A DNA stretch of 64,000 nucleotides. Origin: Bryoerythrophyllum caledonicum. Lineage: Eukaryota > Streptophyta > Bryopsida > Pottiales > Pottiaceae. Shown piece after piece: positions 31,593 to 64,000 of this stretch. The first letter of the stretch is position 1. Every line of letters starts with the position of its first letter. The notes beneath the pieces were generated by a model. It searched no databases. It had not been told where the DNA came from and worked only from the letters and a program-made list of their open reading frames with translations. Both the position numbers and the translations under genes were made by a program. The DNA lies in contig OZ020517.1 in NCBI GenBank assembly GCA_963971425.1, positions 12,278,501 through 12,342,500 of the forward strand, read 5' to 3'.

Positions 31593-32144
31593 TTATTTAT
31601 TATATTGTAAATCTCCAAGTGATTCTCCTTCCAAAAACATTGAAACGCATTCAGCAGCCGTCGCATGAGAAAACGCAACATACAATCTTCTATGGGAGAA
31701 AATATCTTCGGTCAAGTAATCACCAACTTTGGGAAGCATTTGTACTTGTGACATTTTAATAACCATCGCATACGCGATGCGAACCGGAAATTGCTTGCGT
31801 CGTATTGAAAAAGGAAGTCTGGCGCTCTCACTAACCAAAAGAATCCGTGATATAAATGCAACATACCCTGTACAATCACTTGTGAGGATGTCGGCCTCAA
31901 TCACTTAGGTTGAGCGGCAACGGACGATGAATCTGGTACCATTGTATATTCCATTTGATAGATCTAAGTTACGCAAAAGCATCACCACTGTATCAACTTT
32001 AAGCGTAAGCTTGTGCAGTAGATAGCCGCTCAATTCTAGCATATTCAAACACTTGGATGAAATTACATAGGCGCCATCTTCATCGTCCACCTTTTTAGGC
32101 TTCGGAGAATTTGACTTACCTCAAGCACCATGCCAAACACAACG
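31593..32144 (-). pseudogene. Helitron helicase, C-terminal part
   Basis: The minus strand encodes VDDEDGAYVISSKCLN, then LTLKVDTVVMLLRNLD followed by NGIYNGTRFIV, then in the next frame IEADILTSDCTGYVAFISRI, RRKQFPVRIAYAM and FSHRRLYVAFSHA. These are the C-terminal motifs (V, VI) of PIF1-type Helitron helicases, which drive rolling-circle transposition. The canonical SQGQT and SR residues are damaged and frames shift, so it is dead. The N-terminal part of the same gene lies 16 kb away at 48361-49280, because a TIR element sits between them. Confidence 0.85.
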
Positions 32145-32175
32145 AACACGCAATTAAGCAATTATGCACTTGGCC
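32145..32175 (+). repeat. Left terminal inverted repeat of 16.2-kb element
   Basis: Begins AACACGCAATTAAGC and ends CACTTGGCC. It pairs with 48330-48360 with one mismatch. A second GTGCACTTGG motif lies just inside. Confidence 0.8.
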
Positions 32176-32716
32176 ATTTAAAAGTGCACTTGGGTACAAC
32201 GGCGGCCATTGCGAATGAAAGTGGCAAAATTGAAAAAAAAAAAAAAATCAAAGAAAAAAAAAGTTTTCCAAAGGAAAAAAAAATTGAGCTTCTGCAACAA
32301 TATTACGTACAATCATGGTTGTTCATATTGGAAGCGATTTTTTGGCATTTTCAACTAATTTGTGGTGGCCCCTCGTTAGTACTAGATAAATGTGTATTTA
32401 ATATAGTTTCACAATATTTCAAAGATAGATTTGAAAGATTGTAGTGTATAAACAGGCGTAATTACAAAAAAACATACTTTATCCAAGGGTTGGCAGTTGA
32501 TTAAAAGATATTCTACGTAGTACATAATGCATACAATGGTGAAAACTAAATATAGATGCTTCAATAATTGGACTTAGCACCAATAGTAAACACAGCTTTA
32601 CTCTAAAGGATTAATGACATAACGTCTTACATCACCCTTAGAAAATACTACTCTTACACATATACTATATATCAATTACCATACACAACTAGTATACTCT
32701 CAAAAAGGCACACTAT

Positions 32717-35700
32717 CTACTCCATAGAATTTAGGGCTGCTTGCAAACGGTCGTCATCGATAGCTTCGGTTTGCATTGCAATATATTGTAGGATGTGAGC
32801 CTTTGCCGATTGAAGAATGCGAATCCTGCTTTCAACCTGCACTCCAAATACATTGCGCTTTCTCCACCCGCTGGCCCCGGACATGGTTATTTCCAGTGTG
32901 TCTATCCATGAAAAAATGCATGCATCTTTCTCTATCCAACTATGGCTCTCCCCAAATGGCTCCCAGAATGAATCCATGCAATTTGCATACCGTTGTGCAG
33001 AAGACCCATGTCCATCAGCAACCGCCCTTTGGATGATGGGCCAATACCAACAAACCTTAATCTTAAGTCTCCATTGGTTTTTTCCTTCCTCAATTACTTT
33101 TCCCACATAGAATGATACACCGCCTTCTATTTCTACTCGATCAACACTCAAAGCTACAAATTGTCCACAACGGATATCAGATTGTGGATTAAATGGTGGA
33201 AATGGGTTGTGATTATCTTCATACATTGCTCCTTCTTCGGGGCGTTCCTCAACATAATTGCGCTCTGTTTGTTGTGCTCTACGCACTGCTTGATTAGAGG
33301 GTCTTCCTCTACGAGGACCAAAGTATCCTCTAGCCTCGGCATTTGGAAGCATGGCCACTACCTGCTCTACGACATTTACCTCGCGATTTTCTTCACTTGC
33401 ACCATCCATTACATCCAAAGATGCGCTCCCTGTAGGTTCGGTGTTGGAGAACTCTGAAGGCCAAAACGGTGAGGTACGATGCTCATTGCTACGATCTTTG
33501 TGTGGAAATTGAGCTAAATAGAGTTTCAATCTTTCAGCCTCTACTTTTTCCTCACGATTCTTGTCCTCATGCTGCAACCTTTGAATGCACCTTTGTTTAT
33601 ATGCAATGAAGGCATCCAACGCCTTCAACTCCCGTTTGTCCGCTGCAAATACATCCGCAAACGATGGTCGCCCATCCCTATTTGGCAACGACCTCAAAGT
33701 TTTTGTCCCTGCCTCCGGTCCCCATGGATCCTTGCAATAAATGTTTGTGTTGTACTCGAATCCCACGAGTCCCTTCTCGATTGTCCATATAGAATCGCAT
33801 GTGGTGCGGAAATGTTATGCCCACCAATGAATCATGACCTGTCAGTAAGTGAGGAGTTATGAACAATTTCCAATCCCATACATTCTCTAGCAGCCGGGCG
33901 CTAACAAATGCCTCCGTAGGAGATGTTCCTCGTTCTATAAGACTAATCATTTCCTTCAACGAGTCGACATCCGACCTCTTCAACGTATTTGATATACAAC
34001 TGAAACGTTGATCAATATCTTCGTGGGTATGGCCCACTATAAGAAAAGATAGTTCCACCTCCTGAAAAACCCCCAATCCCACCAATGTAGTATATAGAGC
34101 AAACATATAAATGTTTTTGTTCTCACGCGTGCAGTTGTCGGCCTGAATTCGCACTGTTGGTGGCAAAAAGCCCCTCCTCCGCAGCACATCTCCAATCACG
34201 TACAACAATGTACTCACAACTTGATTGCTATCGTGTTTGTGGTGAGCCCCAAACCACACGTCGAAGTATAAACCAATCCCATGTACAAGAGCACCACATA
34301 GATGGGTCTTCACAAACCGGTGCTCAATGTTCTTCAGAGTCTGACGCATCGTCGGTACCAGGGTCGTGTTTTGGTCCATGCCATCCACTATGATGCACAT
34401 GTACAACTCAAGGCTAATATAAAACGACCTCTTGAATATCCAATAATGCCTACGTTCTTCCATCTGGTTGCGCAGATGCAACATAAACAACTCCTTTATC
34501 TTTATCCTTGCATCCGCATTGGTGGTTCCCTCCATGGCACATTTACGCTCCCAACAATTATAACACTTTGAGAATCTCGAGAATGGAGGTACCTGAACGT
34601 GGGGATACTTGATGCGCCACATCCTTCGGAACAAACTCATAGAAATCGTTTCTCCATTACAAATTCTCTTAACCTCCTTGTTCACGTAATTGAATACTTC
34701 AAATTTTGTTGTATTCAAAAGAAGGAGAATGAGAGGCACCACTTCGTTGTCACTCTTACGGCGAATACAACTATGAGGTTGAGGACAACCAGCTTCATCG
34801 ACAAACGATTTAAAGCAAGCCTCTGCTGCAGACATTCTAGTACTCTCTCTTATCGGATCTGAAAGGGTATTGCCATGAACCGATGTTACTCTTCCATATA
34901 TTAGACAGTCCTTCTTCAATTGCTTTAAGCGCCTCTGTGAATATCCAACCCCAACAGCGTAGCAAGCATTGCAAACTTATTTCCCATCTAACTTTGTTAC
35001 AAACTTGTCTCGACGAGTTCCTTCCGTCCTTGTGTAAAAAGAAACCAGCATCTGTCTCATCCACGTACTTCGAACTGAAAAATCATTATCCCATGTACTA
35101 TATCGCATGTCTAATAGATACATTGCTGGAACGTCCCTCAAACAATTGCGTTTGCATCCTCCTTCTGCCATTGCAATTTGTACACTTCTAAGCGATACCT
35201 TAGATGGTGCAGCTTCTGTCAATGATGGCTCCCTTGAATCTCTCATTTTCCTATTTTGCATAGAATATGGACGACGTGCTGGTCTGACATAAGCAAATCC
35301 ATCTACATGGGGCAAATCTTGGATATTTGAGGGAGTAGATTGGGAAAACGACGAATTTTCATCTATGGCGTTTGAAGCATGACTACTGCGTTGAGACCTC
35401 TGGGTGGATCCTGGTGTGTTGATGAACTCATGAAAATCAAATTCTGGGGCCATCACTTCTGTAGGCGCTATCTGTGATCCAATGTCACCATGGACACCTG
35501 TGATATCAGGTTCTACAGCCACTACACGTAGCAAAGATCGATGCCGACGAATGATCAAGCCCACACACATGCCAAGGCGTTCTCCTACAATCTCTCCGGT
35601 CCAATGCAATGCATCATCTACCCTAGTGATACGCACCGCCACCTCGAATGGGAACAACTTTGACCCATTCAATTCCATGCCACATTTGAATGCATGCTCC

Positions 35701-35852
35701 CTGGTTGCTAAGCCCACCACATCTCCTCTTTCTGAAAGCAATTCTACTGCCTTTTCCAATTCAGAAGTCATGATCCCAACAGATCTCTGTTGAATTTGCC
35801 TTGCACGTGCTGCTTGTACTAATCGGGCCCCTACAGAGCTATTAAAAGGCAT
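32717..35852 (-). pseudogene. DUF7869-type protein, putative DDE-like transposase
   Basis: One long minus-strand gene of about 1,045 codons from ATG at 35852. It is broken by a TAA at 34977-34979 (the frame then continues) and by a frameshift near 33770. The middle part matches the DUF7869 family seen in many eukaryotic repetitive genes: SKCYNCWERKC, then CIIVDGMDQ, IQADNCTRENKN and VGHTHEDIDQRFS. The spacing of these acidic motifs (D, D, then E/D about 40 residues later) is what an RNase H-fold DDE nuclease would show, so a transposase role is my inference. The C-terminal part has a GQFVALSVDRVEIEGG / WYWPI segment reminiscent of a BAH-like reader. The start is set after the CACTA insertion, which lies only about 34 bp upstream; codons upstream of it come from that insertion. 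Confidence 0.7.
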
Positions 35853-35885
35853 ATTGTCCCTTTCGATGTGTGGCCGTATCAAATT

Positions 35886-36745
35886 CACTACTAGGAAAAC
35901 AATAGAAATATGACTACGGCCATATGAATACAAGCTCCTTTTGGTTGGAATGCAGTCATCAGTAACCACTTTGATGACTAAAATGGCTGTAGTCATCACA
36001 TGACTATGATTCTAGTTATATTTTCTGGGGACCTCAATGGGAACTCCGTAGGGAACGTATTCTTCCTGTTAAATTTCGCGTGGGCAGCCATATGACTAGT
36101 ATTAGTCGTTATGTGACTACGGTTTCGAGCAACAATATGACTATATATAGTCATTATTTGACTATGCTTTTGGACAGCCAATTGTAAGAGGGTTTTAGAG
36201 TGGGGCCTTTATGATTTTAATTCAAATCTATATACTTTTGTTTATGTTTGATCTATTCTTTCAATTTGACTTTTCTTTCTTCAGTTTACACTCTTTTTGG
36301 AATTTATTTCGTTCCTTTAAGGTTTTAATCTTTTCTATATTGTATTTTTTTTTTCTAATTTCGTTTTCTTTCTTTATTCAAATTTCGTTTATCTTTTTCA
36401 TGTTTTTTCTCTACTCTATTTTTTCTTCATTCCATATTTTCTTCCTCTTTCATTTTGTTCTGCCTTTCTACGATTTCTTTTATTTTTTTAATTGTTTTCG
36501 TTACTCCTCTTTTCATCTTTTATCACTTATTTCCTTCTCTCTCCTTCATTTCAGTTTTTTTCTCTATCTTCTTTGCCTTTATTTCTTATTTTTTCTTTTC
36601 TCTCCCATCTAATATTTTATTTATTTATTTTAACTTTTTTTCCTTCTTCCTCTTATCTATTTTTTCCTCTTTCTTGTATTCTTCTTCTCCCTCTCGTCTC
36701 TCCCTCATCTTTTTATTTTCATTTTTGCTCTTTTTTTCCCTTCTC

Positions 36746-36784
<39 letters not shown>

Positions 36785-39338
36785 GTTTTTAGTTTTTTAA
36801 GATTGTTATTATTATTATTTCTTTTTTTTCTTTTTTTTTCAAATCTTACTTCTGTTATTTTATTTTTCTTTTAACAAAGTTGTAAATAGAATTAGTGTTG
36901 CACAAGTTTAGGGTTGAATTAAAGACGTTAGACTTGGAGGTAAGTCCAATTGTTTTATGGCAATGCTTTTGGCTTCCATTTATTTTTTCTAACATCATAG
37001 TTTTTTTTTAGTGAATTCTCAATTCATTTAGTTATCACAATTATATCAATTTCTTCAATTGAGAACACAAAACCATAACTTTTGTAAATTTATAACAATC
37101 AAATTTAGGAAAGATTGAAATAATTTGTTCTTGAAGTTTAAGGGCTAAGAGCTTGCAATCAATTTGTTTCTATTTTTGGTTTTTGAAGAGGGAGAGACTA
37201 TATTAACTTTAAATTACTATCATGATTAGATTCATTTAAAAAATGTTATAAAATTAAAAGAATTAATTTTCTTTACCAAGGGGTATTTTATGACAATTTT
37301 GACCAAAAAAATGGTTGTTTCTTGAGGGATTAATGTCAAAGGAAGTGAACCCAACATCCATTTGTTGTATTTTGGTCAATGACTCATTTTCAAAAATCTT
37401 CTAAATCCTCAACTCGGTCACTGACTCACTGATGCATTTCTTAGGAAGCATCCAAATATGTACAATTAGGTAAAGATGAAATACATGAATACATGTTGCA
37501 AAGGATTAAATATTTTTTAGCACTACAAAAGATTCAAAACAATAGAGATCCAACATTAGCATAAGGAAGTATACAAAATTTAATCCAAATGTCCCGGAGA
37601 CTAATCAAAACTTGAAAAGTCTGGAGAAGAAATTCTTCACTATACAGAGTTGGAAATAAAATTAGGTATACTACATACTTTTTGCCAAGAATATCTAATA
37701 TTATACACTCTACACTAATCATATAAAAGATTAAAAGACCTAGAACTTCCATCTAATTACACAATAAAGTAAATAGTTGACTACTAATAGTCATCATTGC
37801 AGTAAGCAATCAAAAAATATAGTCATTAATCAAGGAGATGTGACTAGAATTAGTTATACATATTGAACAACTATGACTAAATGTAGTCATTATCTTTGTA
37901 AATTGATGACTATATTTAGTCATCAAGAAGAGAAAACCCTAACTCTGATACCGCCGCCACCTAAACCCTAAACTTAGAACCACCATTTTAGTTGCCATCG
38001 CCATTTACTACCACGTTGGAGTTTGAGCAACTTCCTACCATCAGTGCTTCTAGAGTCTTAAGTGTTTTGGAGTTGGGTGGTGTCTTGTGGTAATGTAGTG
38101 CGTGGTAGTATTGGAATGAGGAGGTTGGATTAGTGTGTGTATTGTAGTGTTGGGTGGCTGTGAGGTGGTGGAGGCAAAGGATGTTGATGGAGGGATGTTT
38201 TGATTATCGCTAATGTGAGTCATTGGAATCTTGGATGCAGAGCTGGACGACTAAATCCAAAGAATGGCGTGAGCGATCGCAAGATTTTGGGTAGGCCTAG
38301 GCGTATGTGCATGCAAACACTATGGAGTGGAGGTTTTGGGTATGAACATGATGGTTTTGTGGGCATGGGGTTGTGGTGTGGGTTTTGTGAGGTGGGGTGG
38401 GAGGTGGTATTGGATCTGCGGTAGGTATTCATAGTCTTGTTAATGGAGTGTAGGTGGTGAAATAGAGAGTGTTTTCTAAGTTGTAGTTGTGATGTTCAGG
38501 TGAAGAGGATGGCAATCACAAGCAACTATCGATCGAGGGCAGTTTAAGAAGCAGTAGAGTTCAGTGGTCACTTAGTCACTTACGCTCATGAACGTTTTGA
38601 TTCTCATGACTATATGTAGTCATTAGCTGTAGTCAGATTTTTGAAAGCAACGACTATTCATAGTCATATTATGAGCATTTTTGACCGAAAATAAAGCTTT
38701 TATTCGGTCATATCATTGGGCGGATACTTGAATGTATGTGAACTTCTGACTACCAGTCGCTTGTTGTTACATATGACTAAGTCCAGTCATCCATGATTAG
38801 AATATACAGACATCACATCTCAAACACCTACTAGCAGATGTGAATGACTGACGAACCTTCACCAATATCTAAACCGAAAGAATGACTAATTCTAGTCATC
38901 ACAACCATATTATCCAAATACTGGTAGTCATATTATGACATCATTAAATTCCAGCATTTTAGTCATGTACTTGAAGAAGCTGACTAAATGTAGTCAATTG
39001 GTTCTGACTATCCTTAGTCATATACATATATACATATATGACTATTATTAGTCATGGAGTTGAATACGCTGACTAAATTTGCGCAGATGGTTCTGACTAG
39101 TCTTAGTCACATACATATGACTAAATATAGTCACATTTATTAGGCTGCCCAGAATTGAGGTCCCAAAAATCTTTTGGGAACGCGCCTGTGGGAACGCGTG
39201 CTCGCAGATTGGACTACAGAATCTGACTTGTCCGTTATGACTGGATTGAGGACTAAAATTGGTAGTAGTCATCACCCAGTCATATGTCGTTTTTTAGTCA
39301 TAAAACCCAGTCATATTTCCACTGTTTTCCTAGTAGTG
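35886..39338. mobile_element. CACTA element, non-autonomous
   Basis: Left end CACTACTAGGAAAACA, right end its complement TGTTTTCCTAGTAGTG. The inverted match runs about 30 bp with two mismatches. Both ends are packed with subterminal units TGACTAnnnnTAGTCAT in both orientations (35905-36170 and 37780-39300), the hallmark of CACTA (En/Spm) elements, whose transposase binds such repeats. No TNP-type gene is seen. The interior holds a pyrimidine tract and unidentified sequence. It has landed immediately upstream of the DUF7869 start codon. The flanking triplets (ATT, AAA) are not a perfect 3-bp duplication. Confidence 0.8.
36211..36880. repeat. T-rich pyrimidine tract with (TTTA)n
   Basis: About 670 bp of the plus strand is almost only T with some C and A, ending in a clean (TTTA) microsatellite at about 36745-36785. 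Open frames through it encode artificial Phe/Ser/Leu strings. It lies inside the CACTA element. Confidence 0.85.
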
Positions 39339-39589
39339 AAAGGAGTCTGAATCGTGCCGCTCTCCATTATCACTATTAAAAAAATAAGAACATTATCGCT
39401 GCACATTAGTAAAAATACATGTACCAATTGATAACCTTCAAAGCACCATTCATCTGACAATTGATATGTTTCTAAACACATATTCATTGTTCAAAATATG
39501 ATGATGATATTGGACCTTTTGATAAAATAGCTTTGAAATAAAAAAATTAAGAATTTGTAGAGCATGAACTCCTTACACGGAGTCTTTAA

Positions 39590-40531
39590 CCCTGAAGATA
39601 CAATGACAGTTTTACACCAAAAACACTTCAAAATTGTTGGATTCCAGCGCAATGAACAAAAAAGGAAACGAAAACTTTTATTTCTAGTTTTGACCTTAGG
39701 ATCTCAATTAAGACTTATTGAGTAATATAAAAACAAAATTTCATAAATTGTGACCGTACGGATTGAAAGATTATAGTGTTTGAAGTCAAGCATATGGTTC
39801 ATTTTCTTCCCTGCATGTAGTGGATCAACATACTTTGACTTCACTTGATGTCAATATTTGGCACTACACAAGGTGTTAAGCATAACCATCTTGTTAAGCA
39901 TGATGTTAATTCCTTGTACACCAATTTTTAGAGATAGAGAATGGGTGTAGCATATTCAAAACAATTGTGCAAGGAGTGGAAGTTCGGAATTTGTTAATTC
40001 ACACTGTAATTGTTTGTGAACTTAATATGTTTTAGATTGGTAATCCAAATGGTCAATAAGAAGGTTTACACCACATATTGTTGTGGAAAAAATAAAAAGT
40101 GAAAAATCAAAAGAATTCTAGGTTTTAATTGGAAAAGAAGAAGGTTTTTTGGTACCTTGCCCAACACTGACTGACAATGTGTGAAAATGTTTGACCTGGG
40201 TTGGTATGCTATTTTTCACTAAAGACAGGAACTTTTTTTGACAACATCAAGAGAAATAATATTACTTGCAAGTACTAAAAATCTCACATTCAACAGAGTG
40301 TCCTAGCAAAAGTTTTTGGACGTGCCCGACTTGCCTGCTCTCCCCATTTGAAATTGAAAACCCTAATTTTTTTTGATCAAATGTCCAATTTAGGTAAAAT
40401 TGTTATCCCACTAAAGTCTTTGTAATGCCTTTCTATGGAAAAAAATTCAAAGAGAAATGGTGGAAATTGACACCATAGGAACCTGGCCGAACATTCCAAA
40501 AGCCCATTTTTGACACTTGATCCTTTAGGGG
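39590..40531. mobile_element. TTAA-family MITE, inverted copy
   Basis: TTAA (39586-39589), then CCCTGAAGATAC; at the right GATCCTTTAGGGG, then ATAA. The interior is the reverse complement of the copy at 28792-29753. Length 942 bp. Confidence 0.8.
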
Positions 40532-41635
40532 ATAAATGCACTACACCTCTTTTGCATCCCTAAACATTGGGGTAAATGGAATTTATATCATTTCTGACAT
40601 GATGATAATGAACTCAGATCATGTGTCATGCGAGCTTTTGAATCCAAGTGAATTGAAAAGAAGGGAATCCACTGAACCTAGGGAAAAAAATAAACCATGT
40701 TGTCTACTTGCTATTACCGACACCATTGAAACTTATTACAATCGCTAATAAAAAATAAGGTTTGTACATCCACAATAAAGGTTATTCTACAAACAACATA
40801 GTATAGAAGATCAATCAACAATCAATCTTAAACTTGTATAAAAATAAATGTTTACCTGAAGATACGTTGCAGGTTTTAGCAATATACGCACTGATGCTTG
40901 ATGGCGTTCAACATTAAATCACCATTCCGTCGTCGTAGTTGAACATGTTTTTCAACCCTTCCCACTTTACCTGCAACACATGCATAAAACTTATATGGTA
41001 AACTATGCGATAGAAACTCCTAAGTATGTTCGTATTACATATAGCCCGAAATTTTAATATAATATGTAAAAAGTTTAAACATAAGGAAGAACAAAGCAAA
41101 AGGTCCAAAGTTCAAAAGTCAAATTTTGACTAGTAAACTTGAGGCACAAGGTTCCAACATGGATATAAGGTTTCAATGCAAATCTAGAGATCATTTCTCT
41201 TCCGAGTTTCTAAGGTGAGCTCTCTTGCAATCGAAACCTCGAGGCCATATGCATTTATACTCCATTCACTAATTTCTGTCAACTTTGTGTATTGTGTAGG
41301 TTGGAGGAAATCTGCACATCGAGGAGATTTTTGCGACTTTGATAAGCTACTAACTCAGTTTCAATTCTGCATAGAGGAAACTCCAGGGTTACGTACATGA
41401 TGATTGAAGTTCAGTCAGATTTACGATAGTGTTAGGTGAGTACCAATATTTGAATACAGAAATGAGGACACCAACTTGAGTATGTACAAAATTGCAAATT
41501 CAACAAAGTCGAATAAATACACTTGTAGCAGTGAACAACTAGTGAATTCAGCCTTCGTTTAACTGAAATAATTACACCAACACCACACAAATTAAAGTCG
41601 AGAGAGTAGCTGATAATATGGTACTAAATCCTCAG
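40532..41635. other. Interior of 16.2-kb element, no gene seen
   Basis: Short frames only. A further piece of the TTAA family (CACTACACCTCTTTTGCATC onward) covers about 40535-40745. The remaining sequence is AT-rich and unassigned. Confidence 0.45.
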
Positions 41636-41639
41636 TACG

Positions 41640-41830
41640 GCACATCACCGCACTACCTGAAACCCTAGCCGCCACACCCAGGCACCCAAACCCTAGCTGC
41701 CACACCGAAACCCTAGCCGCTGCCCCTAAATCCTAGCTGCCGCAACTAAACCCTAACAGCCGCCACCAAACCCTAGCCGCCACCACCAAACCCTAGTCGC
41801 CGCAACCCAAACCCTAATCACCACGTGTTC
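41640..41830. repeat. CCCTAGCCGC telomere-like minisatellite
   Basis: Units such as AAACCCTAGCCGCC(A/G)C recur about eight to ten times at 13-25-bp spacing. The core AAACCCTA equals the plant telo-box. It lies within the 16.2-kb element, just left of the assembly gap. Confidence 0.75.
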
Positions 41831-41871
41831 GTGGAAATCGCGTGATGCCTCTTGGAGTAACTGTGGACTAG

Positions 41872-41889
41872 GGGTGTGCGCGCACACCC
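41872..41889. repeat. 18-bp perfect palindrome, left of gap
   Basis: GGGTGTGCGCGCACACCC is its own reverse complement. A closely related palindrome lies at 42424-42445, on the other side of the assembly gap. Confidence 0.8.
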
Positions 41890-41946
41890 GCGGCTGCTGG
41901 TGCTCCTCCATCCAACATATCCGGATGAGATCCTCGACAACAAGGG

Positions 41947-42146
41947 NNNNNNNNNNNNNNNNNNNNNNNNNNNNNNNNNNNNNNNNNNNNNNNNNNNNNN
42001 NNNNNNNNNNNNNNNNNNNNNNNNNNNNNNNNNNNNNNNNNNNNNNNNNNNNNNNNNNNNNNNNNNNNNNNNNNNNNNNNNNNNNNNNNNNNNNNNNNNN
42101 NNNNNNNNNNNNNNNNNNNNNNNNNNNNNNNNNNNNNNNNNNNNNN
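41947..42146. other. Assembly gap, 200 N
   Basis: Exactly 200 unknown bases, a fixed-size scaffold gap. True length is unknown. All open frames crossing it are artefacts. Confidence 0.99.
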
Positions 42147-42650
42147 CTGCCGGCTCCCTCACCTATCTCCTCACCGAAACTACATTCTCCTCCCACCACA
42201 ACCTCCTCACATTTTCCTCCCATTCTCCTCCCACCCAAATCCTTGCGCGCTCACATTCTCTTCCCATCGAAACTCTACCTGCGCCAGCTCCCTCCCACCC
42301 TCATATTCTCTCACAACTCCTCTCTCTCCGCCCTCAAAAACCCCTCTCTCCCACACCTTCATTGTCTCCCTCCTCAAAACCCTCTCTCTCTCACACACAC
42401 AGCCTCCCTCACAACAACTACCAGGGGTGTGTGCGCGCACACCCCTCGTAGGACTACCCAAAGTTTCGATGGATTGATATCCGTCATAGATACCCTCATT
42501 CCCAAAACCCTAATACCAACCCTAATTGATACCCTGAGTTGATACCTTGGTTGTAAGCCGGGTATAGGTACCTACGCACTCATACCCTGGTGGTGATACC
42601 CTCGCTCTTGATACCCAAAGTACCTTGGTCCATAAATGATGTTGAGAATA
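42147..42650. other. C-rich block with GATACCCT repeats
   Basis: The first 300 bases are CTCC-rich and the next 150 contain about eight GATACCCT-type units. The palindrome GTGTGCGCGCACAC lies at 42429-42442. No gene. Confidence 0.5.
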
Positions 42651-42689
42651 TCTCAACCAAAAATCGTAAAAAATACTTGATTTAGTGCA

Positions 42690-43735
42690 TTTAGCAAGGA
42701 AAACAAAATAAGGTTTTTTTTAGTTCTAACCGTAGGATCTCAATCCTTACTTATTAAATAGTATACTAGCGAAATTTCATAAAGTATTACCGCACGGATT
42801 GAAAGATTATAATGTTTGAAGTAGAGGAAAGGCTCATTTTCTTCCCTAAGTTTACTGGATCAGCAGACTTTGACTTCAATTAGTGTCCAATTTTTGCACT
42901 ATAAAGGGTCTCAATTAATTACCATAATGTTAAGCATGATGTTAGTTTGCTATATACCAATTTTGAGAGGTAGACAAGGAGTGTAGCATATTCCAAAAAA
43001 TTGTGCAATGAGTGGAGGTTCAAAAATTCTCAATTCACGTTATTTTTTTTTGTGAACTTGATATTGTATGAAATGAGAATCCAAATGGTCAATAAGAAGG
43101 TTTACATGACATAATGCCGTAGGAAAAATCAAAAGTGAATCATACGAAGATCTCAAAGTTTTATGTGGGAAGGTAGAAGATTTTTTGGTACCTTGGCCGA
43201 AAATTTGTGACAATGTGTGAAAATAATTGACTTGGATTGATATGCTATTTCACCGAAGAACTAACAACATGCTTAACACGATGGTATTGGATTTAGATCT
43301 TGTGTAGTGCAAAAGTTTTTAGAGGTAGATAAGGGGTGTAGCATATTTTTTAAAAATGTGCAATGAGTGGAGGTTCAAAAATTCTCAATTCACGTTATGT
43401 TTTTTTGTGAACTCGATATTGTTTTAAATGAGAATCCAAATGGTCAATAATAAGATTTACATCGCATAATGCTGTAGGAAAAATCAAAAGTGAATCATAC
43501 GAAGATCTCAAAGTTTTATGTGGAAAGGTAGAAGTTTTTTGGTACTCTCCCCGAAAATGTGTGACAAAGTGTGAAAATAATTGACTTGGATTAATATGCT
43601 ATTTCACCAAAGAACTAACAACATGCTTAACGCGATGGTATTGGATTTAGATCTTGTGTAGTGCAAAATTTTTTAGAGGTAGACAAGGGGTGTTGCATGT
43701 TCAAAAAAATTGTGCAATGAGTGGTGGTTCAAAAA
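42690..43735. mobile_element. TTAA-family MITE with 354-bp tandem copies
   Basis: The interior of the TTAA family (CCGCACGGATTGAAAGATTA block and onward) is present, but its later part is tandemly repeated. The landmark AGAGGTAGA(C/T)AAGG recurs at 42966, 43321 and 43675, a period of about 355 bp. Neither TIR is clearly preserved. It ends about 65 bp before the start codon of the next gene. Confidence 0.65.
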
Positions 43736-43801
43736 TTCTTATTCCATACTAATAGTGACTACCGGTTTTTAATGATATACAGGTTTTTTGAGTATTGCGT
43801 T

Positions 43802-46800
43802 ATGGCATCACCAAATATTGATAGAATCTGGGAGAGCCACGGCTGGTGGATCGCGGAAGTGGATGAGTCGAGCGCCTTTTTATGGGTGACGGATTATCCC
43901 TTTGAGCTGGGGAAGCGTACATCGGCGCTGGGAAAGAGTTTTGGCAAAATCCAGGCAATCACTCTTCGACGTGATGATATGGTATACGTTACTTGCGTAG
44001 TGGGTCCAGGTCAATCAGAGGTAAAGACTTCTCTTTCGAAGAAGTTGCTTCTTGCACCTGTCCTTTTGAATCTTCTTCAAAATCCAGGTCAGGTGAAATT
44101 CCTCAAATCATTGCAAACGTTTTGGTTAAACATCTCTCTTGAGGTACGTACTGCTAGATACAACAACGTCTTAGCTTGTTTAGCGTTATCACCGGAGATG
44201 GTGCAGAAGGCTAAGAAGATTATGGAGGAACATATTAAATATGAGGCATTTCGGGAGAGGGATCCATCACGTGCGACAACTGAAGCCCCACCAGCGGAAC
44301 TAGAAGAAACATAAGTTTATCGAATTCTTGCTGAGCCGTTGCAACTGGATTGGCGACCAATGGAGGGGGGGAGGGGAAGTGGAGGCCATCATCCCACCAC
44401 AACTTCTGAGGTACAGACATTACCGAATCCTCCATTAACAAGTAGACGTCCTACGAAGAGGCCACGGCGTGTTGAGAGTGATGTAGCTTCTGGTTCAAGA
44501 GAAGGCCCATCAAGATTGGATCCAAGCGGGAGGAGGTTGATTGGGAGAAGTATAAGATCCGGTGGCAGGGTTCCAAGGTCAGGGCTCAGGACGTCTGATG
44601 GTCATCATAAGGCCCCTACATCTACACCGAGAGATTTAGCTGATTTGTCAGCCATGGCGTCGGAGGAAGAAGCATTTCACAACCTATTTGACAGTGTACC
44701 AGAGAATTTTGAAGACAATGCGGAGATACCGCAGGATGTTCCAACTTCAATGTATTTAAAAGCACCAGTGTCACAACGGAGGAGATTGCAAAAGGATCAG
44801 TGTAGGGGAATTTTGTGTTTAAGGCACACATAGACCGCATTGTCTCTGTGGAGAATCCGGAAACGAACCATCGGATTTTATCGCAGAAAAGGGTCAGAGA
44901 AGTATTTAATCGCCTAAGAGACCCTGAATCCGCGACTGAGGTGAGCAGATTGGTACTTCGACCGATCAGATACATTGTGCATATTACCACCGATGATGGT
45001 GTCGTTGAGAAGGAGGAGCTGTCATTTCCGTTGGTAGGAACCACACGAGAGTTTGAGCGCATGTTCATTGCACACGAGAGTGCTTCTACACAGGGTGCTA
45101 TGGGATCCCAATATTCTTGGCTTCAAGATCATATCATTTGGGAACCGGTGGATGGGCAACACATAGTAGTAGCTTGTAAGTTTGCACAACAGCAGTGGAG
45201 AGATGGTACTATGTCTTTAAATGAGTACCCAGACACGTTCGAGCGGCGGGAGGCATCTTTTGTGGTGTATGATGATCGTCGCTTTTACATTGAGAAGTCT
45301 ACGCGGATCAACGTGGCCGAGTTCCAGAGACATTCATATTCTACCATGGAGGAGGATTTGAGGAAGCTCTGTCAGATTTGGGATCTATACGGGAGGCCTG
45401 ACAGCACACTACGTGCGGACGATGCACGCAGGGTTGTTGTTTTGGTGAGTGTGGCAAGTGCAGTGCATAAATTGCCCAAGGGGGATAGAGTTGTCACGGT
45501 GAAGAGGTTGGCCAAAAACATGGAGGATCTGACCAATCATGCATGGAATCCGAGCAATGACTGCTTCGAAGCTATCATTCAAGTATGCAAGGACTACGAA
45601 GACGGCATTATCTTTTACAACAAGGAGGAAGAGGACAAGTGGAAGGACATGGCGGAGAAGAAAGAGCTGGATCCAAATGAAGACGTACGACCAACAAGAA
45701 AGGAGATGACCCAGAATTGGTTGAGGCCATTAGATAGGGTTCGGAATTCATATTATCTTCGATTGGCAAAGTCTACTGCGGCGAAGCCGGTGACGGAGGA
45801 TGGAGTAAGACCTCGTCAAACATATTACTTCGACGGTGTAAAAGACAAGAATTCACATCCTCGTACGATTGCCGGTGTGGTTGATCGATATCAGAGACGA
45901 GAAGCTGTGAAGAATTCCATCCGTTGGTTGATGGTGGAGAACAAAGAAAGTACACCTGATTCTATGGAGGAGTTCTTTCGTATCCGTGTAGGGAAGTATT
46001 TTCCAAGGAGTAACGCACAACTTGATACCTTTCAGAAGCTTTTGAATGCTACCACGAAAAAAACTTGGACTTCTCATGTGCGGGGGAAGGTATTTAAACT
46101 AGAAGACATAGGCTACCTCATCCCTCCTTCCATCAGGTTTCATTATGGTGATATTGCAGCAGAGGGGCGTGGATCCATTGGACTGACCGTGGATGTGGGA
46201 GGACTGGCTACTGCTAATTGGGAATGTCAGATGGAAGTCAACAGGCCACGCCAGAGCGACATAGAGAATCTTCTTCCGGTTCGGTGTAGAAGAGGGTTAT
46301 TCTGCACCGACTACATTGAGTTGCGGAAACTATGTTTGTGGGTGATTGATTGTCGACGAGGCGGTGGGAGGCATGGAGATGGTCATTGGGGAGACGCCCA
46401 GATATCTGCAACTTTTGCACAGCTGACATTATGGATGGCAAATATTGAACGATGGAACGTCATCTTCTTGTTACCAGCGGCCGTGTATGCCAACGAAGAG
46501 TTTTTCACGAAGGTGAAGCTTCCAGAGGGATGTACTATGCGACGTGGATGTTGGGCATATGATCCGAATTCGGTTAATTCCTATGCTCTCGATTTTACAG
46601 AGAATGGGCGTCTGGAGCAAGTAATACAACTGATTGGCGATGTTGTGATTTGTATGCAGCTCCATGTAGATACTTCTCCTGGCTCGAATTATGTTTCTGG
46701 AGACGTTCCACTTCCACTTGTTTTCTTGGATCATTGGAGTGAGGCATGCCAACCCTCTGAAGTTGATTCACTTGAGAGATCTCGATCAGAGCTGGCAAGA

Positions 46801-47763
46801 CTAGTGGGCTCATACTTGCCTCGTGGTTGGGGTTTAGTGGCGTGTAACATATCTACGGCCATTTCTACGATCCTTAAAGGAGATTTCCAGGGATCTGAGA
46901 TTTTCATCATTGAGGATTGTACGGACAGAGTTTCATTCCTGTACAATGAGTTGTCCGACAATTTCCAAGGACAACTGTTGGTCAGGACTGGTGGAACAAG
47001 TACTGGTTGCAACATCGTACCTGAGACCGAAGAGGCGGTTGGTGGAGTAAGGAATGAAGACGACAATGAGGATGGAGATGGTTTACATGAGAGATTGCCA
47101 CGTTCAGGTACCACTGAAGATTTCTCATGTCACAGTAGTTCAGACACCGTTGAAGATGGAGTGAACCAGTCTCCTCCAAGAGAGAGGATTCCATCAACGC
47201 AGCGGGCGGTGGGAGATACTTCAGAGGAGACGTCTGCAACACCTACAGAGAGGATGCAAGATACCGGTGTAGTAGATGTTAGTTTGGCGGCAGGGACAGG
47301 ACGGGGGCGTACATTTGATGGTCCTAGGGTGGAGATGGAGGAAGAAGAATTGGATTTATGTGAATTTTTTTCGATGCAGAGGAGGATTCCACAGCCTCCG
47401 ATGCCTTCTCAATAAGAGCATGTATCGGAGATACAAGAGACGTTCGGAGGTACTCAGAGTGATACCGGACCAGGTTTGCCTTCCATTCGAAGATCTAGCG
47501 TATCCGAGGACATCATTGCATTTCAGGGGGCCTACTCGTCAGAGCGAGAGATGTCCTTCAATACAGAGGATGGTTTTTTTACAATGACGATAGCGTAAGG
47601 CATATGCGGGAGGGTGTTCCTGGCAATTACCGATTTGTTGAGTGTGCGTCCATTGGCATCGAACATGTGGGAGATCGTCCAGTGCAGAATCATGAACTGT
47701 CCGCTATGGTAGGTAGCGCCATTGGACACGTGGAGGGAGTCGTTCCGCCAGAAGATGAGCTCT
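43802..47763 (+). pseudogene. Unknown large protein, ParB-like motif
   Basis: A long plus-strand coding region of about 1,320 codons starts at ATG 43802. Lesions are few: TAA at 44312-44314 with the frame continuing, a frameshift near 44808 in a GGGG-TTTT stretch, TAA at 47413-47415 with the frame again open, and a frameshift in a T-run near 47575. The longest intact piece (44815-47415) has 866 codons. Around residue 110 of that piece, HIIWEPVDGQHIVVACKFAQ is followed by RINVAEF. DGQHxxxA resembles box II of ParB/sulfiredoxin-type DGQHR domains; this is a weak motif match only. A DCRRGGGRHGDGHWGD segment lies in the middle and an acidic Ser/Thr-rich region near the C-terminus. No family is recognised. 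It reads towards the right TIR, divergent from the DUF7869 gene. Confidence 0.65.
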
Positions 47764-48329
47764 AAGCCATGGAGCTATATACTATAGTAGAGCATGCACG
47801 CAGTTTAGGTGGCAAGTGCGTTAGTATCATGCAGTTTGAGATGTGTCTATCGTTCAGTTGGTGGTATATATTTATATATTGGGTGGTCTATGTGATTTTT
47901 TTATTTTAGAATTCCTTAGCAATAGTGTGGAATTGCTTGATTAAGTATGTTTTTGCATCCTAAAATACAGTGAGGTACTTACATTGTCTTAGGAAATTGC
48001 ATATATATTTTTGTATCTCTTACATATTGTATTTGTAGTGCAGTACTCTAAAATCCTATAGTAACTCATAACACATTTATAATCTCTTTGGGCACATGAT
48101 CATAATTTTGTAGCAGGATTTGCAAACTAGATTAGAAATCATATATTTTCTAAAAAAAGGTAGCGAATGTAAAAAATATATTACTGATATGAACATGAAG
48201 ATGCCAATGTATGACACGACAAACACCAATTTTTTTGATAAAAAACATACTAAACTTTTGCCAAATTTTGATTATTTTAAAAGTTATAAGCAAATAACTT
48301 GCGGCTTTCTACCAGCAACCAGTGCACTT
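47764..48329. other. 3' flank of the large gene
   Basis: AT-rich DNA between the stop codon and the right TIR. It presumably holds the 3' UTR and subterminal sequence of the element. No further gene. Confidence 0.5.
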
Positions 48330-48360
48330 GGCTAAGTGCATAATTGCTTAATTGCGTGTT
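48330..48360 (-). repeat. Right terminal inverted repeat of 16.2-kb element
   Basis: The reverse complement begins AACACGCAATTAAGC and ends CACTTAGCC, with one mismatch to the left copy at 32145-32175. Helitron sequence resumes at 48361. Confidence 0.8.
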
Positions 48361-49280
48361 AACAACCTTAATTTTTTCCACGTTTTTAATGCGTGCGGCA
48401 AGAATATTGCGACTACTAAAAAGATCTCTTCCTCTATGGCCATTTGCAATTTCAATGAAAATTGCGTTGATCATGTCTTTTATAATCTGCTGAAGGAATG
48501 CCATGATATTGAATAGACAACCGACAAAATCTTCCAAACAATGTCTAGTTTGCCTTTTCCAAGCGCCAAAACCTATCCCCAAACGTCCAATTTTCCATGT
48601 CAACAAGCATTGTAGAGGTTGCAGTTACACACATTTTCTGATGTAAGGTGTACACTTCAACATGGCTCCATACGTAAGACTCTCTGTTTGATGTTGTGAT
48701 AATGTCTTGGGGCAAGTCCTTTGGAACAATAGCCATATCTTGTCTAAAATTGTTGCACATCACAAACGTAATTTCTCTAAAAGGCACATTTTGCTTGCTT
48801 ATGTTGCGGAGCGTATGGTCAACAACTTTAAAAGCAAGCTAGTTGACCATTGGTGCTTTGTCCTAGAGAACAAGCTTTGTTTGCCGTATCAATTCTGCCT
48901 TATCACTTTGTTTGTGGATGTTGCACATAGAACTCAATTGAAATTTTAAACCTTAAATGAACGGTCAAGGCTTTGTATAGCATCAACATGGCAATTTGAA
49001 ATGAAGCAACTGCTAACGCAATTTGATTTTGCATATGAGCGGACTTCAAAATGAGATTTTCAAAGTACGTCTTCTCGGTAACATTTGGTCTATCAACAAT
49101 ACAAATATTGTTGGAGATGTCAAGCATGCTCAATTGCATGACTCTTTTGCAAACGTCGCACTGATCGTTGTTTAACGCTTCAATTTGTAGTTGAAGCTCT
49201 TCTATCAATTGTGCAACATTGCTATTGAACTGCTCCAAAATTAGTCGATTTGTTTGCAATTCTTCTATGCACATGCAAGT
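48361..49280 (-). pseudogene. Helitron helicase, N-terminal part
   Basis: Minus strand, from about 49274 down. LILEQFNSNVAQLIEELQ and NNDQCDVCKRVM correspond to the entry of the helicase. A ruined Walker A (DRPNVTEKT instead of GxxGTGKT) is followed by IALAVASFQIA. Then, in another frame, PFREITFVMCNNFRQDMAIVP corresponds to motif III (GGDFRQxLPVVP), and NRESYVWSHVEVYTLHQKM follows. The last Helitron-like piece is RDLFSSRNILAARIKNVEKI. The gene then breaks at the 16.2-kb insertion and resumes at 32144. No Rep domain was found upstream. Confidence 0.85.
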
Positions 49281-52007: not shown

Positions 52008-54176
52008 CTAGAAGCGGTGAGCAACTGCATCAAATCGGGGAACTTGAACAACATCGCCCCAGGATGCCATTGTGAGTGGGGTGGAGATAATTTTGCGGGA
52101 GACATTAGCAATGTCTTCCAACGTCAAAGCTTGGACACCCCGAATAAATTCTGCGACAGGCTTGCGGTGTCCATAGGTCAAAATCTGACGGCCAATATCT
52201 TCCGTGATGACAACTCGTGACTCCAAGTTCATCAGAACTGCGGAAATAGTGCTGTTCTTTGCCCGCTGCAATTCGGCTTGTGTCACCTGCCTAGGGGTGG
52301 CAACCGCAAGAAACTCTTCACATGCAATGTCCACAAGCTTGGGAACAAAGTCACCAGACGAGGTGGCATGGATACCGAAGAGACCAGTGTCGTTGTAGAT
52401 GCTGTTGAAGGCTGTGAAAGATTGCACCTGCTCCCATTTGTTCAGAACCTGCAAACGAGAAATTTCCACATAAGAGATGAATGGAAAGCTTCATTACAAG
52501 GACGTGATCCTGCACAACTATGGTCTCGTATCACCTGTTATCCGTGACAGTGCATACTACTGTGCTCCTCTTACCCGAGTGTACAACCGAGAGTACATTC
52601 CCTTTCCAGGGCCACCAGCAGAGAACGAGCCTCCACCTCCGAGGAGAGTTTGCAGGACAGTCACAGCGTACGACTCCTCATTTCTCCACCCTCCGGGGAC
52701 TTCAAATGCAATAGCAACGTGCGTCTTGGGAGAGTCCACAGATTGCCGCCAGTCCCCGCCCACATACTGCGTTTCCACAGGAATGGGCTTGTTAATAGAT
52801 GGGAGATCAGCCAACAAAGGCTCTGCTACAGAAAGAAGGTCTTCATGATCCACACCGGAGGCTGCAAAATAATGGAACATGTTACTGACGGGGTCGATAG
52901 AAACCTCGAACCTTAACCCTACTGGAAGTAGATCGTCCATAAACCTAGAAAAGCGAATGTCTAAAACGGATGGTCTAGCGCTACCATAATCATCAATTAC
53001 CACCCATATTGAAAACCAAGAGGAAGTGCAAATCAGCCCAGCACTATGCCAAGGAGGTTCGCAATTACCCCTCCAGAAATCCATGATGATTATGCTGCCG
53101 AGAGCATATCGAAGGGTTGCACCTACTGCAGGAAACTCTAATTCGAATGCTTGCTATGAACTCTCATCCAATCAGATACTTGTCTAAGATACTCTCTATC
53201 TGCATGATATTAGGAGTAACATAGCCCAATCCCAGACAATAGATTGTACAATACCCTGAAAACGGCAGCAGCAGCACTACGTTGAAATTCTTGCAAGACG
53301 TGGATGCATTTCCAAACAACCGTCAAAAATCAACTCAAGCAGAGGATATCACAATTCCCCCACAGAACGAGTTTGCACACCTGCCAAGACGATCCTAGGC
53401 GCGGTGTAATTCTCCTTCACAAAGTCGTGAAGAACCCCGCCGTTCAGGCGCCCCAGGGAAGACTCAGGCGCCATGAGAGGTTGACCTAAGCCACCAGTGA
53501 ATCCAGCGGAGTGCAAGGCCTCATAAATGGTGACCTGCGGATTGTTCACCATCTCGGCGGTCTCGGCCTTGACCTTGGACAGCTGCTCCTGAATCTCCCA
53601 CTCATTGAACAGCGGGTTCCTGACGGTGTCAACCAGGAGCTCAACCATCTCCGGCATGTACGTCTTAATCGCGTCTCCGGTGTAGCACATCTGCTCTCGA
53701 GAGGCGTTCACCATGACATTCCCGCCGATGGCCTCCACCTCGCGCACGAGGCGGAAGTGCGAGCGGTTGGCGGTGCTCTTGAACGCCATGCGCTCCAGCA
53801 GATGCGACGCGCCCATGGACGACGGTCGCTCATTCTGGCTCCCGGAGTCGATGAAAATGCCGATCGTCGCAGTCGGCCCCGCTACATTCTCCGACGCAAT
53901 CTTCAGCCCGTTGGCTAGGGTTGTCACCTTGGTCTCGCTCGGCTTCACATCCTCAGGGAGCGCGGGCGGCAGATGCACGCCGTGCAGCGGCTCGTACAAT
54001 GCTGGCACGGGCGTAGTCGGGCGCTCGCCCAGAAACCACGACAGCACGCCCCCCGAGCTCGACGCCTGCGAAGACTCCGTCCGCGGCACCGCCTGGTTGC
54101 CCCATGCGCTCGTGCGCAGCTGCCGCTGCGCCAACTGCTTGGCCAGGCGCGCCCTCCGCACTGCCGCTCCCCTCAT
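52008..54176 (-). CDS. MPPA: Mitochondrial processing peptidase subunit alpha
   Basis: Three exons, complement(54176-53381, 52861-52575, 52448-52008), with GT-AG introns of 519 and 126 bp; 1,524 nt, 507 codons plus TAG. Plant MPP-alpha proteins are about 500 residues. MPP removes targeting peptides from imported precursors; in plants it is part of the cytochrome bc1 complex in the inner membrane. The alpha subunit binds substrate and beta carries the zinc site. Here the HxxEH site of beta is replaced by SHLLERMAFKST, as expected for alpha. Other hallmarks are FRLVREVEAIGGNV, REQMCYTGDA, the flexible glycine-rich loop GGGGSFSAGGPGKGMYSRLY and ILTYGHRKPV. The N-terminus (MRGAAVRRARLAKQLAQRQLR) is Arg/Ala-rich like a mitochondrial presequence. 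Exon 1 is GC-rich compared with the flanks. No lesion is seen; this is the only evidently functional host gene in the window. Confidence 0.93.
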
Positions 54177-61004: not shown

Positions 61005-62265
61005 GTGACTTCCACAGCGGATGCAATGTTTGGGTGCAATGCTTTGACATCCGATTTGCCATGTAGTTCTACGCTTTTGGAGGAGACATATACTTGTATG
61101 TCAGGGGTAGCTAAATCACATGAGCACAGATCAATGGAGATCCCTGCACATCATTGCAGGGATCTCCTTCCTCCATGGAGAACTCAGTTGGAGCTCACAC
61201 GCCGTAGTCGGGAGATTGTGGATGCTATTGATGCTCCACTACTTTCAATGGACTCTTCCACTCCGTTGTTGGCTTGCACTATTCAGTGGCGACCACCGGA
61301 TGAGGATATTACCCTTGTGGAGCTATTTGCTGGTATTGGTACGCGGCTCGCGGTTGTATTAGAAAACGGGCTCAAGGTACGACGGTATATCCACGTGGAT
61401 AGTGGCTTTGCAGCCAATCGTGCCGCTCACCATCACATTCTGCGTCTTTTGGCGTTGTATCCGGAGCAGGTACCACCTTTTGCGATTCGAGGGTCTTTTG
61501 ATAAGTTGCCACGTGATGTGACGTTGGTCAGTGAGGATGATCTTCGCCGGTTAGGTCATGTGGACTTGGTGATTGTCAGATGGCCTTGCCAAGGCCCTTC
61601 ACGGGCAGGCAGTGGACGTGGCTTAGATAATCCACAATCGAGGCTCTTTGCGGATTTGTTGAGGCTCATCTAGTGGTAGACTACCCATCAATCGACACCA
61701 CCGGAGTACATTTTTGAGAATGTATCCCCATTAGGAGATACACGGATGAAGGTGCGTGAGGATAAGGCATACATCCATCACCTTCTTTGTCCCCCGACGT
61801 TTGTTGCTGCCGCGGCGTTGGGCTCTTACGCCCATCGGCCACGTTGAATTTGGACCAACATGGCATCCTCCACGGCACTCACCTCTGCATTTGCTGAAGT
61901 GCAATGGCCTGTGCGCCATGAAGTCAATGACATCTTGGACGACCACCGTGTTTTCACGGAGGATATCAAGGATGATGAGCTACCATTGGCCGTGGTCAAC
62001 CACATAGGTTTCACTTGGGGGGCATTTCCCACGTTGATGTGCTATCCGGGCTCTTTTGCCTTTAGGACACGTGGTCAGGGCATGGTTTGGGATTCTTCTA
62101 TCCAAATTTACGAGGAGTCTTGTATTGATGTGAGGAAGCAGGCGATAGGCTTTTGACAAGCACCACCGCTGCACCGGATCTCTATGAGGGCCAACATCGT
62201 TATTTGTTGAGTCTAGCCATTGACCTCAACACCCTCATTTGGATTTGTGGCTCTGTTTTGCCGTT
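61005..62265 (+). pseudogene. C5 DNA methyltransferase domain in retrotransposon
   Basis: Located between protease and RT, in the polyprotein frame. It would transfer methyl from SAM to cytosine in DNA. Motif I is VELFAGIGT (about 61317-61343). Motif IV is WPCQGPS, with the catalytic Cys codon at 61587-61589. Motif VI is the ENV triplet (61716-61724). Motif VIII is ALGSYAHRPR followed by IWTN. A target-recognition-like stretch follows with LPLAVVNHIGF and FPTLMCYPGSFAF. The motif IX/X region ends with IDLNTLIWICG after a one-base shift near 62155. Motif I precedes motif IV, the conventional order, unlike the rearranged plant DRM enzymes, so it is closer in layout to DNMT3-type. Lesions: TAG at 61671 and 61677, TGA at 61845, a frameshift near 62155, and Arg where Gly is usual before WPCQ. 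Confidence 0.85.
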
Positions 62266-62639: not shown

Positions 62640-64000
62640 CTTACCGGTGCCGAGGCATGAAGGGTACGAGCGTTTATACGTTCGTATCGTAGTTGTTTTG
62701 CCTTTAGTGTCCATGATTTGGAGGGCTACAGAGGCAAACCGATTCACATTTTGTTGGAGGACGACCACCTGATCTTCCGACGACCGTACAAGCTCACTCT
62801 TTCTGATAAAGTTGGTGTTTATACTTCTTGTCAGGAGTTGTTGGACGCCAGCTTGATTGAGCTCTCCAACGGCGAATACGCTTGTGCCACGGTAATGCCA
62901 TCGAAGGACATCTTTGGCAACTGGACGGAGAAACAGATGTGTGGGGATTATAGGCCGGTCAATCGTATGACCAAGTCGGATCGATATCCCATGCCCACGC
63001 CGGAGGAGTTGTTTGATGCGGTGGGCCACGCTAGAGTATTTAGTACTCTAGATTTGCGGTCTCGTTACCACCAATTATCATTGATGGTAGATTACCACAT
63101 TGACTGGATGAAGACTGCATTTTGGGGAGTTGATTAAGATGAAAGATATCAACTCTATCATGGGAAGTTTCTCCCATTTGGCCTCAAGGATACACCCGCT
63201 GAGTTATAGAGGGTGATGGACCAGGTGTTGACCGGTTACTGTTTGTCCGATGGTACATTGATGATGTTATCATATTTAGTAGCAGCTCACAGGAGCATGT
63301 GAGGCATCTTTAGGCGGTATTTGGAAGGTTACGGCAATGGGATTGCACTTGCACCATGGCAAGTGCAAGTTCTTCCACGACCGGTTGCCATATTTGGGAC
63401 ACATAATTGTTCCAGGGGGTCTAGGCGTACAGCAGGCCAAGGTGGATGCGTTGCAGAAGATTCCTGCCCCAACCGACGTGTCACGGCTTTGATCTTTTCT
63501 TGAGTTGGCGAATTACTATCGCCAGTTTGTCAAGAACTTTAGGTTGATTGCTAAGTCATTGACTATTCTCACTGGAAAGGATCAACCATGGACTTCGGAC
63601 AGGAGTAACAGTAGGCGTTTGCTACTTTAAAGCTGAAGCTCGGTTCAGCGCCTGCGTTGCGGCGTCTAAATGTTATACGACGCTTTCAATTGCACATAGA
63701 CTGGAGTACAGTGGGATTGGGGGTTGTGTTGACTCAGAAGGATGATGAGAGACGGGAGTATGTTGTGGTGTTTGCTTTGAGGAGCAACAACAACGTAGAG
63801 TCCAACTATTCATCCTATAAGTGGAAGGCCTTGGCCGTGGTTTGGGCCATAGCCCATTTTAGGTCCTATTTGTATAGACAATGTTTTACGTTGGTGACCA
63901 ACCATCAGCCTTTGAAGTGGCTCATGGAGTCTGACAAGCTTACTAGCAAGCTTGCCATGTAGGCTTTGTTGTTTCAAGAGTACATCGACTTTGAAGTTGT
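62640..64000 (+). pseudogene. Reverse transcriptase and RNase H of Ty3 type
   Basis: RT: DYRPVNRMTKSDRYPMPTPE and FSTLDLRSRYHQL (motifs 1-3), then after TAA and TAG codons FLPFGLKDTPAEL, and in another frame the catalytic YIDD at 63254-63265. The connection region has AKVDALQKIPAPTDV and LANYYRQFVKNF, read in different frames. RNase H is 63657-63960. The expected acidic residues are altered: YKWKALAVVWA (the minus-strand copy at 56.6 kb has YEGEALAVVWA) and TNHQPLKW (TDCQPLKW there). The order RT then RNase H, with polyprotein linkage, is typical of Ty3 elements. Confidence 0.85.

Follow-up and report, generated by a model that had tools for sequence, protein, structure and literature searches.

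A stretch of 64,000 nucleotides from Bryoerythrophyllum caledonicum (GenBank assembly GCA_963971425.1, contig OZ020517.1, positions 12,278,501 to 12,342,500), referred to here as the window, was analysed with a focus on the segment at positions 32145-48360. This segment is a decayed copy of a terminal inverted repeat (TIR) transposon, which is inserted in a Helitron helicase and belongs to a high-copy family. It is very probably a copy of a recently active cut-and-paste transposon in which gene A, coding for a protein with the DUF7869 domain, provides the transposase and gene B provides an element-borne accessory protein. A DUF7869 DNA transposon with a second protein had been proposed in a preliminary description of the window, and this proposal was supported by 1643 genome matches to the TIR, by paired ends in eight of 10 copies, by target-site duplications (TSDs) of 4 bp and by the presence of pieces of both genes in nine of the 10 copies.

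The ends of the element form an inverted-repeat pair of 32 nt with 97% complementarity, reading AACACG..CGTGTT; the termini described earlier as 31 bp long (30/31 matching) were therefore real, but one base longer than claimed. The genome (437.4 Mb in 894 contigs) was searched with the TIR pattern allowing up to two mismatches, yielding 809 forward and 834 reverse matches against none in either direction for the reversed pattern, so that conserved TIRs occur at many genomic positions and are not confined to the window. Provided that most elements keep two ends, these matches correspond to approximately 800 elements, short ones counted. Searches with the terminal 201 bp gave 41 match rows for the left end, including the window (all at 96-100% apart from a single partial row at 91%; best 40 of 1313 candidates scored), and 40 rows at 94-100% for the right end, the window again included (best 40 of 837 candidates scored). 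For the comparison of copies, 20 kb was fetched for each of 10 copies selected by the left end alone. The eight copies with a full right end measured 10.1-15.7 kb, six of them 10.1-13.4 kb, and a piece of gene A was present in all 10 copies and a piece of gene B in nine.

Target-site duplications were read from 16 end pairs, comprising the window, eight full copies, three further pairs and four short or medium elements. A duplication of 4 bp was exact in nine of the 16 pairs and agreed at three of four bases in five, including the window. As these duplications have a fixed length and are exact or nearly so, they document transposition, and the element is of the cut-and-paste type, its TIRs being 32 bp and its target duplications 4 bp long. 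Two shorter elements of 2.2-2.3 kb, L203 (C1:12772630-12774950) and L204 (C3:2785944-2788383), carry the TIRs common to the family and agree with it at 67-93% over 70-310 bp of subterminal sequence. Neither gave a match to gene A or gene B, and both are probably non-autonomous relatives that were moved in trans.

Within the window copy, two long divergent genes read outward to the TIRs, as first described: gene A with its DUF7869 domain (PF25273, 8.8e-50) on the minus strand and gene B, a long gene with no Pfam match, on the plus strand (Table 1). Both genes are broken in this copy. Three of the five matches to TGCACTTGG found across the whole window on both strands lie within the element ends, and these repeats are a candidate binding site for the transposase. 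A nested insertion of 3.46 kb, which we take to be CACTA-like, has its own 32-nt inverted ends starting with TTCACTACTAGGAAAA, and no clear target duplication was seen around it. None of the 10 fetched copies has it at this position (matches of at least 150 bp considered), in keeping with the younger nested insertions described earlier. Because this insertion inflates the window copy, the 16.2 kb given in the preliminary description is not the native length; without the insertion the copy would measure approximately 12.8 kb. A single PIF1-type helicase, read on the minus strand, is divided between the two flanks in the order originally reported: a piece of the right flank matched positions 119-195 of the PIF1 profile PF05970 (3e-10) and a piece of the left flank matched the later Pif1 2B domain PF21530 (1.1e-11). 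A second piece of the left flank, the third examined in all, gave no match.

Table 1. Features of the element and its insertion site (window positions)
Feature	Position	Strand	Basis or remark
Whole element	32145..48360		Paired TIRs and genome family matches
Left TIR, 32 bp	32145..32176	+	Inverted-repeat pair and genome matches
Right TIR	48329..48360	-	Inverted-repeat pair and right-end genome matches
Left target-site position, aacg	32141..32144		Flank reading
Right target-site position, aaca	48361..48364		Flank reading; 3/4 bases same as left
Direct repeat TGCACTTGG at 32165 and 32185	32165..32193	+	Further copy 48323-48331
Gene A, DUF7869 protein	32717..35883	-	Pieces 32717-33766, 33678-34919, 34977-35883
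DUF7869 domain	33774..34319	-	PF25273, 8.8e-50, residues 201-382; D (IIVDGMDQ), D (IQADN), HTHEDIDQ
Nested insertion, 32-nt inverted ends starting TTCACTACTAGGAAAA	35884..39340		Inverted-repeat pair; copy comparison
200 N between genes A and B, a gap or withheld sequence	41947..42146		
Repeats of ~355 bp between the genes, extending into start of gene-B frame	42918..43746		Repeat search
Gene B	43802..47415	+	Pieces 43721-44314, 44339-44833, 44815-47415
Helitron PIF1 helicase, upstream part of split gene	48361..49280	-	PF05970, 3e-10 on one piece; limits from preliminary description
Helitron PIF1 helicase, downstream part of split gene	31593..32144	-	PF21530, 1.1e-11 on one piece; limits from preliminary description

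The gene A frame is disrupted in the window by a frame change, by a stop and, close to its beginning, by the nested insertion. Where it is uninterrupted, in copies elsewhere, it forms one long minus frame of approximately 1,075 residues, starting near the point at which the window copy is interrupted, with DUF7869 as its sole strong Pfam match. A list of DUF7869 loci was compiled from the best 150 of 3611 candidates scored, and 65 of these 150 loci had stop-free frames of 1066-1087 residues (counted by hand and possibly covering more than one family). The lengths of the open frames among these loci vary (1066, 1074-1077 and 1087 residues), and the genome probably harbours several related DUF7869 element families. 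Beyond this genome, at least 117 relatives of DUF7869 were found, reaching lancelet, sea urchin and mussel; the animal proteins (Branchiostoma, Lytechinus, Mytilus) share the Pfam domain and are 30-36% identical over part of the query. DUF7869 was not mentioned in the literature searched, and no two-gene DUF7869 element was met there, the search covering titles and the beginnings of abstracts for part of the matching papers.

The assignment of gene A as the transposase is based on the anatomy of the element, on conserved residues and on a profile match to ISAzo13 transposases. In an alignment of 118 rows, the D of IIVDGMDQ was conserved in 82 of the 86 rows with a letter at that position and the second D, in QADN, in 80 of 93, while in the HxHxDxDQ motif the two H were kept in 91/94 and 92/95 rows and the two D in 90/94 and 91/93, one of the latter being the putative third catalytic acid. 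The gene A protein is accordingly predicted to adopt an RNase-H fold with a D-D-D-type active site. A profile of 41 ISAzo13-type transposases was built from 107 motif-matching stretches, of which 80 loci were kept and 41 had a usable frame; the one member checked matched PF07592 at 5.6e-111. DUF7869 scored 32.8 against this profile, whereas column-shuffled profiles had a mean of 14.8 and a maximum of 26.0 (0/100 reaching the real score) and reversed controls scored 14.4 and 15.5 versus 31.8. In the resulting alignment the second D falls on an ISAzo13 D and the last D on the ISAzo13 E; the first D aligns to an ISAzo13 D in a looser setting. Conserved acids and a score above that of 100/100 shuffles, weak as the match is by hhalign probability, are consistent with an element-encoded DDD/E transposase. 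IS5, IS30 and IS3 showed no excess over shuffles, of which 32, 23 and 66 in 100, respectively, reached their scores; IS5 had ranked second best before shuffling.

Several observations weigh against reading the segment as a cut-and-paste transposon with gene A as its transposase. Two of the 10 copies selected by the left end have no full right end within 20 kb (L013 has part of it, L025 none), the duplication in the window itself is imperfect (aacg versus aaca, three of four bases), and the flanks of L027 and L204 agree at two and one of the four bases, respectively. The hhalign probability for the DUF7869-ISAzo13 match is just 4-9%, for which reason the match is taken as support and not as proof. 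DUF7869 also had no PDB relative by sequence in phmmer and profile searches: the phmmer hits to KRas (E of at least 0.31 among the matches listed, 60 of 145) and the profile hits to VapC (E 0.73-1.9) were taken as chance.

The ISAzo13 match bears on the placement of DUF7869 within the Zator/ISAzo13 branch of DDE transposases. ISAzo13 alone, of the four prokaryotic IS families tested, beat its shuffles, with the acids in register, and Zator is reported to resemble ISAzo13 (PMC10045372, available in part). However, both are given a TSD of 3 bp in the same partial source, as opposed to the 4 bp found here (exact in 9/16 pairs), the match is weak by hhalign probability, and no match to the PF07592 transposase domain was found in the DUF7869 proteins scanned, which leaves a weak profile-profile link to a group of which Zator is known here from description alone. 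This placement is therefore considered decidedly unlikely.

Sola is the best fit among the described superfamilies with regard to duplication length and DDD residues, the likeness being one of description only. The available part of one account (PMC10741241) gives Sola elements a DDD transposase, a 4-bp TSD, TIRs of 11-1124 bp and lengths of mostly 2-9 kb with some above 15 kb, and records them in the moss Physcomitrella. Sola1-3 and the present element are accordingly alike in the 4-bp TSD (exact here in 9/16 pairs), in having TIRs whose length fits, in a DDD-type transposase, here a predicted one, and in their occurrence in moss; the residues are compatible, the well-kept D positions of HxHxDxDQ including the presumed third catalytic acid. 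On the other side, curated bivalve Sola1 elements have a mean length of 5,445 bp (PMC10294476, available in part), under half the size of this element, and a second large gene such as gene B is not mentioned in the available parts of either description (PMC10741241, PMC10294476). That the element belongs to the described Sola superfamily, DUF7869 being the Pfam name for a Sola-type transposase, is in our estimate nearly as probable as the opposite, and would concern its filing and not its mechanism. Other superfamilies were likewise compared by description, from partial sources. The ends and the 4-bp duplication differ from the 5'-CAC..GTG-3' ends and 3-bp TSD of EnSpm/CACTA and from the 8-bp TSD of Zisupton (KDZ) (PMC12730594). 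The 4-bp duplication of Ginger1 fits (PMC10045372); its Gypsy-type integrase has no counterpart, since the window proteins gave no integrase match in Pfam and DUF7869 showed no IS3 or IS30 excess over shuffles. We class the element as a TIR transposon, either unassigned or Sola-like, that has acquired a further large gene.

This added gene, gene B, is a single frame of approximately 1,340 residues in open relatives; the window copy lacks the open C-terminal end, its last part being lost. Among the best 52 of 1480 candidate loci scored, 20 had frames of at least 1341 residues without a stop in the match (hand count). No Pfam match was obtained for the window frames or for four relatives, and no PDB match was found. 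Relatives in other sources are 35-65% identical, and among the best 8000 candidates scored 19 relatives reached E <= 0.01, no named organism being represented. One of the best 150 DUF7869 loci lies within 20 kb of 22 of the best 52 gene-B loci, and the order of the two genes was divergent in 22/22 scorable pairs. For the other 30 loci, the partner may fall outside the best 150, as the window's own gene-B locus is among those 30. The preliminary description would have been refuted by DUF7869 genes without gene B and these ends; nine of the 10 fetched copies hold pieces of both genes and all scorable pairs are divergent, which favours the two-gene element, but the genome may well also contain DUF7869 families that lack gene B. 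Each gene reads as a single frame, and thus neither seems to have introns.

Median dN/dS values were 0.41 for a gene-B piece (45 pairs) and 0.26 for a gene-A piece (55 pairs), the latter with a small error as its last ~30 codons, past the frame change of the window, were read out of frame. Both genes were therefore under purifying selection, and the many long stop-free frames of gene B and DUF7869 indicate recent activity; gene B is an accessory gene under selection. An alternative would have gene B as a captured gene, carried by one successful lineage and standing outside the transposition system. Its few relatives, none of them from a named organism, contrast with the reach of DUF7869 into lancelet, sea urchin and mussel, and gene B accordingly does not seem to be a regular companion of DUF7869 proteins. 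Yet the purifying selection, the long open frames, the diverged relatives in other sources and one further case, P0047 (DUF7869) and P0136 (gene B), each on a contig of 457,206 bp and from this equal length probably on the same one, suggest that the partnership of the two genes is not recent. Capture by a single lineage is thus regarded as unlikely.

By eye, the order of motifs in gene B (NPETNHR, LRPI, DGQH..A, R.N...EDL..L and a late DCRR plus GWGLVAC segment) recalls a ParB-like protein fused to a degenerate N6/N4 methyltransferase, and a loose hhalign alignment sets DGQH on DGFHR of the ParB-like YbdM. The profile tests did not bear this out: 22, 51 and 86 of 100 shuffles reached the ParB score in three test forms; a YhdJ-based set of 32 sequences for N6/N4 DNA methyltransferases gave nothing above the reversed control, with 11/100 shuffles reaching the score; and 54/100 shuffles did so for phage ParB-methyltransferase fusions. 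Pieces of five relatives gave no ParB_N hit; one of the five had a match to PF01555 below the threshold (E 0.056), the sole such hit, and it fell in the supposedly ParB-like part. The ParB-like and fusion readings of gene B are kept only as a by-eye lead, the fusion is judged very improbable and, as these tests gave no support, gene B is claimed only as a selected accessory gene.

Plant Hiun/VANC is a transposon with a second gene that acts on DNA marks. Fungal TET/JBP elements are DNA transposons with a transposase and a second gene for a DNA-mark enzyme (PMC12730594, available in part) and are alike in this arrangement; gene B, having no Pfam match at all, has no match to an enzyme of this type. 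The role that we tentatively prefer for the gene B product is that of a DNA-binding or anti-silencing factor working on the DNA or chromatin of the element itself. In the mechanism that we propose, the gene A protein would bind the TIRs together with the adjoining TGCACTTGG repeats, cut both element ends and attach these to the target at positions staggered by 4 bp; the gene B product, kept by selection, would work on the DNA or chromatin of the element, and shorter copies with the same ends would be mobilised in trans. A further-reaching reading, which we put forward tentatively and hold to be rather unlikely, is that DUF7869 elements are a DDD-transposon superfamily of their own and that the present lineage has gained in gene B a large, otherwise unknown gene required for its success, for example if the product targets the DNA marks or chromatin of the element and so lets hundreds of copies evade silencing. 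DUF7869, an uncharacterised Pfam domain, gains from the cut-and-paste reading a testable role as a transposase, with ends, a TSD and many open frames at hand; a protein family of approximately 1,340 residues with no Pfam match is exposed as its travel partner; and a second gene maintained by selection in so successful a transposon offers a promising start in the search for new functions that counter silencing or assist transposition.

Two further loci were observed in the window. On the plus strand, an open reading frame with a match to C5-cytosine DNA methylase (61005-61673; PF00145, 1.2e-5) precedes by approximately 2 kb an RNase H domain of a retroelement (63615-63959; PF17917, 5.1e-26); the two may belong to a retroelement that includes a DNA methyltransferase, a combination present in some algae. 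On the minus strand, 52557-54176 holds a host-like gene, which points to a green plant as the probable host; it has Peptidase_M16 (PF00675, 1.5e-38) and Peptidase_M16_C (PF05193, 3.9e-14) domains and presumably resembles the alpha subunit of the plant mitochondrial processing peptidase.

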